Assembly: GCA_937876245.1 (NCBI GenBank)
Contig: CALEGP010000034.1
Span: 1 to 64,000 of the forward strand
Direction: 5' to 3'
DNA from: an uncultured Actinomycetes bacterium
GTDB lineage: Bacteria; Actinomycetota; Actinomycetes; Nanopelagicales; Nanopelagicaceae
DNA length: 64,000 bases
The translations under genes were made by a program, and so were the position numbers. The notes under the pieces are model-generated. The model was not told the DNA's origin. It searched no databases and saw nothing but the letters and a program-made list of their open reading frames with translations. Shown here piece by piece: positions 38,319-42,387 of the stretch. Position 1 is the stretch's first letter, and every line of letters begins with the position of its first letter.

Positions 38319-39218
38319 ATGGATGAGTTAACTGCCGCGGGAATAACCGACCCACTTCTTCGTGCCTCTTACGAAGAGTGCAAGAGGCTCAATTCCAGAC
38401 ATGGAAAAACTTATTATTTGGCGACACTTCTACTCCCTCCAGGAAAACGACCATTTGTCCATGCGCTATATGGATTTGCTCGATATGCCGACGAAATTGT
38501 TGATGACCTAGCCTCAGAACTCACTCCTGAGGAGAAGGCCATAGAGCTAACTACATGGGGCAATAAGAGAATATTGGATATCAAGAATGGCGCGAGCTCT
38601 GATCATATTGGTCGAGCCCTAGTAGATACTGTCACTCGGTTTAATATTCCTATTAAGTATTTTGAGGCATTTCTGCGTTCGATGGCCATGGATTTATACA
38701 TTAACGAATATCAAAGTTTTGATGACCTAATGGAATATGTCTATGGTTCGGCTTCGGTAATCGGTTTGCAGATGCTTCCAATTCTTGAGGCCTACTCTCC
38801 TGAAAGCCAAGTGGCAGCCGAAAAACTAGGAACCGCATTTCAGTTAGCAAATTTTATCCGCGATGTTGGCGAGGACTTAGATCGTGGGCGAATCTACCTA
38901 CCCATAGATGAGTTGCAAGCACATGGTGTTACCAGAGAAACCCTCGAAGCCCGAGTCGTTACGCCAGAAATTAGGTCACTCCTTAAAGCGCAGATTGCCA
39001 GAGTTAGGCAATTACAGAGTGAGGCTGAGCCGGGAATTAAATTATTGGCCCCAAATTCCCAAGCTTGTATTGAGGTTGCCAATGAACTGTACTGCGGGAT
39101 CGTCGATGAGGTAGAAAAAATCGATTTTGAAATATTTGAACGCCGGGCTAAAACTTCAAATTGGCGGCGAATCAAGGTTGCCTTTCCGGCGCTGTTGCGG
39201 GCGAAAAAAACTCGCTAG
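38319..39218 (+). CDS. crtB: Phytoene synthase
   Basis: Joins two GGPP to make phytoene. The 299-residue squalene/phytoene synthase has YGFARYADEIVDDLA (first Asp-rich motif), YVYGSASVIGLQMLPIL, and AFQLANFIRDVGEDLDRGRI (second motif with DxGED). It starts right after the crtI stop. No lycopene cyclase gene follows; the next gene is a thiamine transporter behind its own riboswitch. Confidence 0.95.
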   Translation: MDELTAAGITDPLLRASYEECKRLNSRHGKTYYLATLLLPPGKRPFVHALYGFARYADEIVDDLASELTPEEKAIELTTWGNKRILDIKNGASSDHIGRALVDTVTRFNIPIKYFEAFLRSMAMDLYINEYQSFDDLMEYVYGSASVIGLQMLPILEAYSPESQVAAEKLGTAFQLANFIRDVGEDLDRGRIYLPIDELQAHGVTRETLEARVVTPEIRSLLKAQIARVRQLQSEAEPGIKLLAPNSQACIEVANELYCGIVDEVEKIDFEIFERRAKTSNWRRIKVAFPALLRAKKTR

Positions 39219-39236
39219 CTTGCTATTCTTTGTCGC

Positions 39237-39321
39237 GACGGGAGCCGATTAATTGGCTGAGAGGATCTGAAATTCAGATCGACCGTAGAACCAATTCGGT
39301 AATGCGAATTGGAAAGGGGTC
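39237..39321 (+). promoter_or_regulatory. TPP riboswitch controlling pnuT
   Basis: The THI-box pattern is present: GGGAGCC, GGCTGAGAGG (39255-39264), a perfect 7-bp hairpin GATCTGA/TCAGATC (39264-39280), GACCGTAGAACC, and a perfect 8-bp stem CCAATTCG/CGAATTGG (39291-39312) whose loop GTAATG matches the pyrophosphate-sensing GATAATG element, then AAAGGGG. GAC (39237-39239) and GTC (39319-39321) can close P1. The 3' end includes the ribosome binding site of pnuT, so TPP should block translation. The gap 39219-39326 contains little else. Confidence 0.93.
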
Positions 39322-39326
39322 TAAAG

Positions 39327-39923
39327 ATGAATATAAATCTAATGGTTACAGTCTTTACAGCTTGGGGCTATGAATTATCGCTCTTAGAGCTGCTCGCATT
39401 TGTCACCGCGGTAATCGGCGTCTGGCTTGGCGTCTATGGGCCAAGGACAACCTGGCCTTGGTGGAGCATTAGCTCCCTGCTCTATGCAGTTCTTTTTTTT
39501 CAGTGGAAATATTATGCGAGTGGATTTTTGCAATTTATTTTCATTGCGGGCGCAATCGCCGGCTGGTTTGGCTGGGGCCCAAAGGGAGCAACGCCGCAAA
39601 AATTGACTGGGAAAGAGATAAGGATTTGGGGCTTGGCTTACCTTCTCTCCTGGTTCGCTCTTTATCCCATTCTCAAAAAAATTGGAGCTACTGCGACTTT
39701 TACTGAGGCCTTTGGTTTTGTCGGCAGCTGCATCGCGCAACTTCTCATGGTGTTACAGAAATATGAAAATTGGATCGTCTGGTTTGTCGTAGATTCGGTT
39801 TATACCTACCAATATTTCGCCGGCCAACAATACTTAACTGGGATTCTCTATTTCATTTTTGTCTTAATCGCTGTTGGTGGCTGGAAGCGGTGGTTACGTG
39901 AAACAGCAGCTCAAGTCAATTAA
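39327..39923 (+). CDS. pnuT: PnuT-type thiamine transporter (PnuC family)
   Basis: A membrane protein of 198 residues with about seven hydrophobic segments and PnuC-family aromatic motifs such as WPWWSISSLLYAVLFFQWKYYA, shown here only in part, plus WFVVDSVYTYQYF. PnuC proteins move vitamins by facilitated diffusion: PnuC nicotinamide riboside, PnuT thiamine. The TPP riboswitch directly upstream points to thiamine. The start is the ATG at 39327 behind AAAGGGG; an in-frame start six codons upstream lies inside the riboswitch and is rejected. It overlaps the next gene, a kinase-like protein. Confidence 0.88.
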   Translation: MNINLMVTVFTAWGYELSLLELLAFVTAVIGVWLGVYGPRTTWPWWSISSLLYAVLFFQWKYYASGFLQFIFIAGAIAGWFGWGPKGATPQKLTGKEIRIWGLAYLLSWFALYPILKKIGATATFTEAFGFVGSCIAQLLMVLQKYENWIVWFVVDSVYTYQYFAGQQYLTGILYFIFVLIAVGGWKRWLRETAAQVN

Positions 39924-40455
39924 GGACCTCCTTTCCTCGCTTGAGCCGAAGTGTGGAGAGAGCGCTGTCATAACCATTGATGGCCCAGCCGGCTCTGGAA
40001 AAACAACCCTGGCTCGCATCTTAAGTTCAGAGCTGGCATCGTCCTATACGGTTCATATGGATGATCTGTATAACGGCTGGGAGTCGACCTTGACTCCCAA
40101 ACTCTCTTCTAAACTTCGCGAAATAATGCGAGAGGTCAGAGATAATTCTCAGGTAATTTTTGCTGTTTTTGACTGGATTGAGAATTCTCAGAAAACCGAG
40201 GTTCGTCAGCCAGCGCCGAGATATTTAATTGTAGAGGGTGTTGGTTCTGGTCAAAGCGCTATTCGTGATTTTGTCTCACTTGCTCTTTGGATCGAAGTTC
40301 CGGTTGAAGAGGGCTTAGCCCGGGTGATTAAACGCGATGGTCCTTCAGTCACGCAATACATGCCAGCATTTCTTGCGGCTCAAAACTCACATTTTGAGAA
40401 AGAAGAGACCAGGAAATGGGCGGATAAACGCTTAAGTGGCCTGGGTACTGTCTAA
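39898..40455 (+). CDS. P-loop nucleoside kinase-like protein coupled to pnuT
   Basis: A protein of about 185 residues with a Walker A motif DGPAGSGKTTLA, a uridine kinase-like HMDDLYNGWE loop, VEGVGSG and a LID-like Arg segment (ARVIKRDGPS). It looks like a small-molecule kinase, but the substrate is not evident. I take the GTG at 39898 as start, 26 bases inside pnuT; an earlier in-frame start exists at 39874. The overlap means the two are co-translated under the same TPP riboswitch. A role in phosphorylating and trapping the transported thiamine or its precursor is my inference. Confidence 0.7.
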   Translation: MKQQLKSIKDLLSSLEPKCGESAVITIDGPAGSGKTTLARILSSELASSYTVHMDDLYNGWESTLTPKLSSKLREIMREVRDNSQVIFAVFDWIENSQKTEVRQPAPRYLIVEGVGSGQSAIRDFVSLALWIEVPVEEGLARVIKRDGPSVTQYMPAFLAAQNSHFEKEETRKWADKRLSGLGTV

Positions 40456-40464
40456 GATTTAGGT

Positions 40465-42387
40465 GTGTCCGACTTAACCGGCGAAATAATCGATAATCGC
40501 TATCACCTGCTCAGAATTGTGGCGACCGGCGGGATGGCGACGATTTACTACGCCCTAGATCGACGCTTAGATCGCCATGTTGCGGTAAAAATAATGCACC
40601 CTCATTTGGCAAGTGACGATGATTTTGTAAATAGATTTATCCGAGAGGCAAAAGCAGCCGCAACCCTTTCGCACCCAAATATTGTTGCGATTCAAGACCA
40701 AGGATGGAATGAAGGCGGCGTTCCTGCAGTATTTATAGTCATGGAGTACATAGAGGGTTTTACTTTGCGCCAAGTAATCCACGGACAGGGAGCGCTCGGG
40801 GTTAGCGAAAGTTTGCGCTACTTCACTCCAGTTATCGCTGCCATGGCAGCCGCTCACAAACATGGAATCCTGCACCGCGATGTTAAACCTGAAAATATTT
40901 TAATTTCAAAAGATGGAAGAGTGAAAATAGCTGACTTTGGCTTGGCTAAAGGAGCTGAGCTAGGAAGCACTCTTACCGTTGAATCCAGTGTCATTCTAGG
41001 AAGTGTCTCCTATCTTTCCCCCGAGCAGGTAGCCCGCGGAGTTTCAGATTCCCGAAGTGACGTCTACGCCCTAGGCATCGTTCTTTTTGAGATGCTAACA
41101 GGGAAAAAACCCTTTGACGGCGAGAGCCCCATTCAGATCGCTTACATGCATGTTAACCAAAATATTCCGGCACCATCGACGTTGAATCCAGAAATTCCGC
41201 CCGAGCTTGATGAAATCGTATTAAAAGCCACTGCGAATAATCCTGACAAAAGATTTATTGATGCCGGGGCAATGGAAGAACAAGTTCTAGCTCTTCTCTC
41301 ACGCCTAGATCCAAAACTTCGGCAAATGAGTCTGGAGCTCGATATTCCGCTGCCTAAGGCTAATTCTGCAAAGAAGAAGCGCAGCAAATTAGAAATGTTA
41401 AAGAATGTTACTACTCAGCTAGATCTAAAGAGGGGCAATGTCATGCGCGAGAACTCAAAATCCAAAGAGAAAAATACCGCTTCCAAGGCTCGAAAGAAAA
41501 AGTCCTCGAAGCGGGTCCAGCGCAATCGCACAATTGCCTTCATCGTCGTACTCCTGGTAGTCGCAGCTAGTTGGTACAAAATTTCGGGACCAGGTACCAA
41601 AATTTCAATTCCTTCTCTCGCTGGAATGACGCAGTTGCAAGCAACAGAGGCTGTTGGAGCCCTGGGATTAAGCGCAGATGTTACCGAATCGGTCTTTAGC
41701 GAAGATGTGCCAAAGAACAAAGTAATTACTTCCGATCCTGCCGGAGGTGGGCGAGTTGCAATAAATGGAACTGTTCACCTAATAATTTCCAAGGGGAAAG
41801 AACGGATCAAAGTTCCAGTTCTTGCCGGTCTTACTCTAGACGAAGCAACTGCAGCTCTCGAAGAGGCAAGTCTTAAACTCGGTCGGGTTACTGAGAAATT
41901 TAACGCACGTCGAGATGAAGGCTTAGTTATTACCGGAGCACCAATAAGTGGATCCAACGTCCGTAAAGACAGCACAGTTGATCTGATTGTGAGCAAAGGC
42001 ATAGAACAAATTTCCCTTACAAACTTTCAAGGCAGAACTAGTGATGAAGCAATGAATGAGCTGACCTTGGTTGGATTAGTTGTAAGCAGTACATATGAAT
42101 ACAGTGACACTGTTCCAATTGGAACTGTAATTACGCAGACCCCCAGTGATGTAGCTACCATAGGGATTGGGGATGAAGTTACTCTGGTCGTCTCAAAGGG
42201 GCCATCCAAAATTTTTGTTCCAAATGTGTATTCGCTTACAAAAATGGAAGCTGCAAAAATTCTGGAGGACCTTGGATTTAGCGTCGCCTTTCTTTATATT
42301 GGAAGCCAAAAAACAGTTACTGACGTTTCGCCGAAAGTTGGCAGTTCTGTGACCCCCGGATCAACTGTCACAATAACTTTGGGGTAG
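40465..42387 (+). CDS. PASTA-domain serine/threonine protein kinase (PknB-like)
   Basis: A 640-residue membrane receptor kinase. The kinase domain (about 10-275) has the glycine loop GGMATIYYA, AVKIM, HRDVKPENIL, DFGLAKG and SYLSPEQ. A basic linker leads to a membrane segment at about 354-372, then four extracellular PASTA repeats start near 381 and run to the end. PASTA domains bind muropeptides or lipid II, so the kinase should sense wall synthesis. It starts with GTG at 40465. It is far from the division cluster and has no partner phosphatase nearby. Confidence 0.95.
   Translation: MSDLTGEIIDNRYHLLRIVATGGMATIYYALDRRLDRHVAVKIMHPHLASDDDFVNRFIREAKAAATLSHPNIVAIQDQGWNEGGVPAVFIVMEYIEGFTLRQVIHGQGALGVSESLRYFTPVIAAMAAAHKHGILHRDVKPENILISKDGRVKIADFGLAKGAELGSTLTVESSVILGSVSYLSPEQVARGVSDSRSDVYALGIVLFEMLTGKKPFDGESPIQIAYMHVNQNIPAPSTLNPEIPPELDEIVLKATANNPDKRFIDAGAMEEQVLALLSRLDPKLRQMSLELDIPLPKANSAKKKRSKLEMLKNVTTQLDLKRGNVMRENSKSKEKNTASKARKKKSSKRVQRNRTIAFIVVLLVVAASWYKISGPGTKISIPSLAGMTQLQATEAVGALGLSADVTESVFSEDVPKNKVITSDPAGGGRVAINGTVHLIISKGKERIKVPVLAGLTLDEATAALEEASLKLGRVTEKFNARRDEGLVITGAPISGSNVRKDSTVDLIVSKGIEQISLTNFQGRTSDEAMNELTLVGLVVSSTYEYSDTVPIGTVITQTPSDVATIGIGDEVTLVVSKGPSKIFVPNVYSLTKMEAAKILEDLGFSVAFLYIGSQKTVTDVSPKVGSSVTPGSTVTITLG

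Follow-up and report, generated by a model that had tools for sequence, protein, structure and literature searches.

How does a bacterium that cannot make vitamin B1 turn imported thiamine into TPP? This question is raised by the acI-type actinobacteria, thiamine auxotrophs which in most freshwater lakes are the most abundant bacterial group (Kang et al., 2017; PMC5301498). According to the thiamine passages of that paper, four acI strains carry the transporter PnuT with a THI element, an arrangement known for thiamine transporters since Rodionov 2002 (as cited in PMC5301498), one of the four strains has a second, FMN-controlled PnuC, and nearly all the de novo and salvage enzymes for thiamine are missing. 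With PnuT and almost no salvage enzyme, the account given in these passages leaves the route from imported thiamine to TPP unexplained.

Here, we analyse a stretch of 64,000 nucleotides (the window; GenBank assembly GCA_937876245.1, contig CALEGP010000034.1) from a member of the Nanopelagicaceae, whose genome of 1.52 Mb (G000) is 99.99% complete. It belongs to a lineage of small-genome actinobacteria, probably of freshwater, that cannot make vitamin B1. The window contains an operon made up of a TPP-type riboswitch, a gene for a PnuC-family transporter and a gene for a P-loop kinase (Table 1). Based on genomic context, we consider it fairly probable that this kinase is a new, non-homologous thiamine kinase, and that the three parts would form a thiamine transport-and-trap operon.

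Table 1. Features of the putative thiamine operon and its neighbours in the window.
Feature	Position	Strand	Evidence
crtB (phytoene synthase), conserved upstream neighbour, outside the system	38319..39218	+	Synteny
TPP-family (THI-box) riboswitch variant	39228..39331	+	cmscan RF00059, 39.2 bits, E 1.6e-6
pnuT, PnuC-family permease, predicted thiamine transporter, 198 aa	39327..39923	+	PF04973, 121.5 bits; TPP-type leader
P-loop kinase, predicted thiamine kinase, 185 aa from GTG 39898	39898..40455	+	AAA_18 / uridine-kinase-like; conserved motifs; AlphaFold
26-base overlap of kinase start and pnuT end	39898..39923	+	Suggests translational coupling; overlap common to most linked loci
PASTA-domain Ser/Thr protein kinase (pknL-like), conserved downstream neighbour, outside the system	40465..42387	+	ORF list, synteny; name read from sequence

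The operon and its conservation

The first-pass annotation had described a PnuC-family permease with a kinase-like gene starting 26 bases inside it, and both descriptions agree with the present analysis. The score of the permease against PF04973 lies far above the cut-off of 27.3 bits and places it in the PnuC/NMN_transporter family. The start position of the kinase is conserved across the genus, with ATG in place of GTG in some relatives, and in most linked loci the kinase probably starts before pnuT ends, the overlap being about 26 bases for most members of the genus.

PnuC-family proteins also transport nicotinamide riboside and riboflavin, and the TPP-type leader sets the permease apart from such paralogues by its thiamine-type control. 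The genome has a second PnuC (G000:C29:12882-13466, locus L055), to which PnuT is 28% identical over the aligned part, behind an FMN riboswitch that scores 93 bits, and an FMN riboswitch likewise precedes the PnuC paralogue in L045, L046, L048 and L058. The paralogue is PnuX-like, that is, a predicted riboflavin transporter of the PnuX type. Since this second copy is under FMN control, the copy under THI control is naturally taken as PnuT. A search of the PDB sequences with PnuT gave only chance matches to repeat proteins.

Is the pair conserved? A strong homologue of the kinase is present in 33 of the 37 genomes of the same family, and pnuT adjoins it in 30 of these 33, including G018, in which the kinase beside pnuT is a fragment at the end of a contig. 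Contig ends are also where G028 has its kinase and a fragment of pnuT, and in G005 and G029 the kinase is present and pnuT is absent. In addition, the two genes are adjacent in 20 further family genomes, in one genome of another family (G158) and in 8 named loci, in all of which a family-specific covariance model places the riboswitch 5' of pnuT. The operon is thus real and conserved: the gene order is repeated in 56 loci, preceded by a riboswitch of this type wherever the contig extends far enough, and this cannot be put down to chance.

It should be noted that 54 of the 56 linked loci belong to one syntenic block, crtB-pnuT-kinase-pknL-nfo, and that in L175 and L082 the TPP element, pnuT and kinase stand in another setting, between an M15 peptidase gene and an SDR gene. 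Because the linkage is mostly one inherited block, its independent weight is that of two settings and not of 56 loci. Kinases without pnuT are found in both settings (G029, G005 and L077).

The first-pass annotation had looked to pnuT-kinase linkage across genomes as a check on its proposal, and such linkage is indeed found in two genomic settings within this clade. The wider family of the kinase, with homologues in 197 of the 297 genomes of the class, behaves differently: neither pnuT nor a TPP element was seen beside the homologues outside the clade in the loci examined.

Several other loci were considered. A pnuC-kinase pair in Kapabacteria (L113) was rejected as an independent example, since its kinase is a HAD-cytidylate kinase and a chance neighbour. 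Among viral sequences, only two weak, partial relatives were found, and the pattern of the riboswitch core gave no match. A contig titled 'Bifidobacterium breve' (L075, CALPKA020000091.1) carries crtB-TPP-pnuT-kinase-pknL; its kinase groups with those of the family members G027 and G174, and the label of this MAG is probably wrong.

The gap in the thiamine pathway

Which thiamine enzymes does the family retain? ThiL scores over the cut-off in 33 of the 37 family genomes and in all ten that are at least 95% complete (G000, G001, G009, G027, G029 and G031-G035). ThiN was found in none of the 37 by a PF04263 search, and so in none of the ten; the kinase itself does not match this TPK_catalytic domain of ThiN and Tnr3, nor does anything else in the G000 genome. 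ThiE and full-length ThiD each occur in two of the ten near-complete genomes, both times G029 and G031, and the other eight all have pnuT and the kinase, although the presence/absence profile of ten genomes alone is too small for statistical significance. The first-pass annotation had proposed to check whether a pyrophosphokinase of the ThiN/Tnr3 type or ThiL was otherwise missing; the former is, and the latter is present, which narrows the prediction to a thiamine kinase that forms thiamine monophosphate (TMP) rather than a pyrophosphokinase.

Neither ThiN, ThiE nor ThiD was found in G000. Its weak matches to PF02581 (ThiE; 15-18 bits) and PF08543 (ThiD; about 49 bits) cover partial profiles and were rejected; the genuine enzymes of G029 and G031 score 169-201 and 297-307 bits, respectively. 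Matches to PF04263 elsewhere in the class were also rejected as ThiN, being stretches of about 35 residues inside ORFs of about 400-600 aa, which are presumably SteA-like proteins.

The G000 genome encodes TPP-dependent enzymes, namely transketolase, Dxs, SucA/Kgd and E1-beta (names read from sequence). The eight genomes that have ThiL and lack ThiE need a thiamine kinase, unless TMP or TPP is imported; judged from gene content, TPP synthesis here seems to require a step from thiamine to TMP by a kinase. No clear alternative thiamine kinase was found. The only strong APH-type candidate, on contig C2 of G000, was rejected, being similar to methylthioribose kinase and missing from near-complete auxotrophs (G009, G032, G033 and G034, each 97-99% complete).

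Three genomes without the pair are informative. In G031, ThiE and ThiD are present and the kinase is absent. In G029, ThiE and ThiD are also present, pnuT is absent, and the kinase is kept at the same locus; this genome is the main counter-example to the thiamine kinase reading. G005 lacks pnuT as well and has a ThiB-ThiP ABC transporter with its own canonical TPP element (L214, G005:C18), with the kinase at the old locus. Its kinase nests within the pnuT-linked clade in the kinase tree (which had three truncated rows and was used only for the topology around G005 and the split between linked and unlinked kinases). The transporter was apparently swapped within the same genus with the kinase retained, which suggests that the need for the kinase does not depend on the importer, as would be the case for a thiamine kinase.

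In G040, a genome of 1.4 Mb from family f5, ThiL was the only one of these genes detected, and ThiE, ThiD, ThiN, a strong kinase homologue, pnuC and a TPP element were not found; from this gene content, TMP may come by another way somewhere.

Sequence and fold of the kinase

All domain matches of the kinase are to P-loop families (AAA_18 / uridine-kinase-like). Its best curated match is NCBIfam PRK06547 (NF005115, hypothetical protein), at 92.9 bits against an equivalog cut-off of 173, and it scores 34.8 bits against the uridine kinase model (udk, TIGR00235), whose cut-off is 220. The conserved motifs are Walker A GPAGSGKT, HMDDLYxGW, FDW, EGVG and RxxxRD. The invariant residues include the lysine K35 and the threonine of Walker A, D55 and W61 (HMDDLYxGW), W93 (FDW), E113 (EGVG) and R142, R146 and D147 of the lid; the catalytic motifs are intact. 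The AlphaFold model (pLDDT 92) has a uridine-kinase-like P-loop fold, and Foldseek aligns it with 3asz, 1rz3 and 6n54 at E ~1e-9 and TM 0.68-0.71. The closest solved structures are uridine-cytidine kinases, with about 20% identity; nicotinamide riboside kinase is among the relatives at the sequence level.

The pnuT-linked kinases differ from the unlinked ones at positions 139 (G/R), 143 (V/G) and 155 (M/W), suggesting a changed pocket, and also at 119. Among the wider PRK06547-type kinases, none was seen next to thiamine genes. Since the wider family showed no linkage to pnuT or a TPP element in the loci examined outside the clade, the ancestral substrate may be another one. A subset of the unlinked homologues (L085, L184, L191, L197, L206, L209 and L210) lies near hisG/hisE and a gene for a PH-like membrane protein (names read from translations), which may point to another role of the wider family.

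A riboswitch with a remodelled arm

The first-pass annotation had reported a well-formed THI element starting at 39237. A TPP-family element is certainly present; RF00059 has no other convincing match in the genome, and this one, which starts at 39228, scores 39.2 bits (whole-genome E 2e-6). However, it is not well formed: it falls short of the 54.3 bits that Rfam sets for gathering, J4/5 is missing and P1 is weak. The elements of the pnuT-kinase loci span 31-45 bits, and Rfam at the gathering threshold gave no TPP match in the window, the element having been found by an E-value search.

P2, P3, the CUGAGA T-loop (J3/2), P3a and the L5 motif UAAUGC are intact. The pyrimidine-sensor half is preserved throughout, with CUGAGAGG, CGGGAG and GACCG in 56 of 56 pnuT-kinase elements, as are the motifs of P2, the T-loop and L5 (56/56). 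The helices covary (114 double-change cells versus 28 in shuffles), with compensatory changes in P3, P3a and P4/5, indicating that the variant is under selection.

The pyrophosphate-sensor arm, in contrast, lacks the J4/5 segment of the canonical form. As the alignments show directly, the canonical arm CCU-GAU-CUGG-loop-CCAG-CGU-AGG is replaced by a continuous helix, e.g. CCAAUUCG-loop-CGAAUUGG, in which P4, J4-5 and P5 have collapsed. The CGNAGG segment 3' of L5, which holds C77-G78 (J5/4), is absent from all 56 pnuT-kinase elements and occurs in each of the 18 other TPP elements of the class, 9 of 10 being scored automatically and the rest read by eye; these 18 include the thiB element of G005 and two elements from each of the relatives G029 and G031. 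The P1 helix, too, is weak by comparison with canonical elements. The score falls below the Rfam cut-off because the pyrophosphate-sensor arm is remodelled.

What could this change mean? G60, C77 and G78 rank with the best-conserved positions of TPP riboswitches, and G78 touches the pyrophosphate directly (PMC3764141); in E. coli, switching depends on recognition by P4/J4-5/P5 (PMC4112796). With the C77-G78 segment missing, TPP is perhaps not the ligand. The RNAs may sense thiamine or TMP in its place, or else bind TPP by a different mode, and we would put a changed ligand at somewhat short of an even chance. If the ligand is altered, this would be a rare TPP-class aptamer with changed specificity.

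Proposed mechanism and alternative explanations

Taken together, we propose the following scheme for a thiamine-auxotrophic, acI-like actinobacterium. PnuT would admit thiamine by facilitated diffusion, and the P-loop kinase, probably coupled to it in translation, would phosphorylate thiamine to TMP and thereby trap it, whereupon the ThiL of the genome would turn TMP into TPP. The THI-box RNA, lying near the ribosome-binding region of pnuT, is predicted to lower expression of the operon when thiamine compounds suffice, and the change in its diphosphate arm suggests that it prefers another ligand or binds its ligand differently. The first-pass annotation had allowed for thiamine or a precursor as the trapped substrate. 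The thiamine part of that proposal is favoured by the linkage, the absence of ThiN and the want of a clear alternative kinase; the precursor HMP is an unlikely substrate because ThiE is absent.

Could the kinase have no role in thiamine metabolism at all? It may be a nucleoside/nucleotide-type or other small-molecule kinase that occupied the locus before pnuT came and is merely co-transcribed. Such a history would fit the uridine-cytidine kinases as nearest solved structures (Foldseek E 1e-9), a family widespread without thiamine linkage, the solitary kinases of both chromosomal settings and the kinase kept by G029 next to ThiE and ThiD. However, it leaves the step from thiamine to TMP unfilled, pnuT and the kinase remain paired in two settings, residues 139, 143 and 155 suggest that the pocket has changed in the linked proteins, and the uridine kinase model is far from reached; we regard it as unlikely.

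Two further readings keep a role for the pair and change its chemistry. The absence of ThiN, and the pairing of pnuT in Bacteroidetes with tnr3, a gene of the thiamine pyrophosphorylase/ThiN type (PMC5613172), would suit a one-step thiamine pyrophosphokinase that replaces ThiN. We think this highly improbable, as ThiL is kept in 33 of the 37 family genomes, nearly all of them without a ThiE to feed it, and would serve no purpose alongside direct synthesis of TPP; the predicted fold, moreover, is that of P-loop kinases that transfer a monophosphate. The pair might instead serve the precursor HMP or a different riboside, for example nicotinamide riboside, given the other substrates of PnuC-family proteins and the nicotinamide riboside kinase among the relatives of the kinase. 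But HMP is a dead end without ThiE, the pyrimidine-sensing CUGAGA T-loop in 56 of 56 leaders points to a thiamine-type ligand, and no NAD-related element was found in the window by Rfam at the gathering threshold, so that this reading appears very unlikely.

The thiamine kinase reading can also be extended. If the kinase were a third class of thiamine kinase, non-homologous to the others and of the uridine-kinase-like P-loop type, and the leader, having lost the diphosphate contacts of J4/5, sensed thiamine or TMP instead of TPP, then transporter, kinase and sensor would be one unit tuned to thiamine in its unphosphorylated or monophosphorylated form. This joint proposal is doubtful as a whole. 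A P-loop thiamine kinase, if true, would close the gap in acI, serve as a marker in the annotation of thiamine auxotrophs and extend the range of folds for the reaction.

Comparison with known systems

The occurrence of PnuT with a THI element in acI is already published (PMC5301498): the acI strains have the same arrangement, with a PnuC-family permease behind the element in a thiamine auxotroph. In contrast to the operon described here, the thiamine passages of that paper contain neither an overlapping kinase nor an altered aptamer arm. Neither the assignment of the kinase nor the arm variant was found in the open-licence literature searched, which also yielded nothing on a P-loop or otherwise new thiamine kinase.

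The leader shares with RF00059 the P2 and P3 helices, the CUGAGA T-loop of J3/2, P3a, the UAAU of L5 and covarying helices, and differs in the absence of C77-G78 from J5/4, a score below the gathering threshold and a weak P1. The kinase has its best curated match and its uridine kinase fold in common with PRK06547 and other uridine kinase-like P-loop kinases; however, its score is under the PRK06547 cut-off, and the unlinked homologues differ at positions 119, 139, 143 and 155.

ThiK has an APH/choline-kinase-like fold. In E. coli, deletion of thiK abolishes the repression of a thiM-lacZ reporter by thiamine (PMC4112796). The kinase described here is predicted to catalyse the same reaction as ThiK (YcfN) of E. 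coli, thiamine + ATP -> TMP (EC 2.7.1.89), followed by ThiL, but its predicted fold is the uridine-kinase-like P-loop fold and not the APH fold. The pnuT-tnr3 operon of Bacteroidetes is similar in its layout, a TPP riboswitch followed by pnuT and then a gene for the trapping phosphorylation (PMC5613172). There, the trapping enzyme is Tnr3, of the ThiN type, which makes TPP directly, whereas here an unrelated P-loop kinase would trap thiamine and ThiL would finish the pathway.
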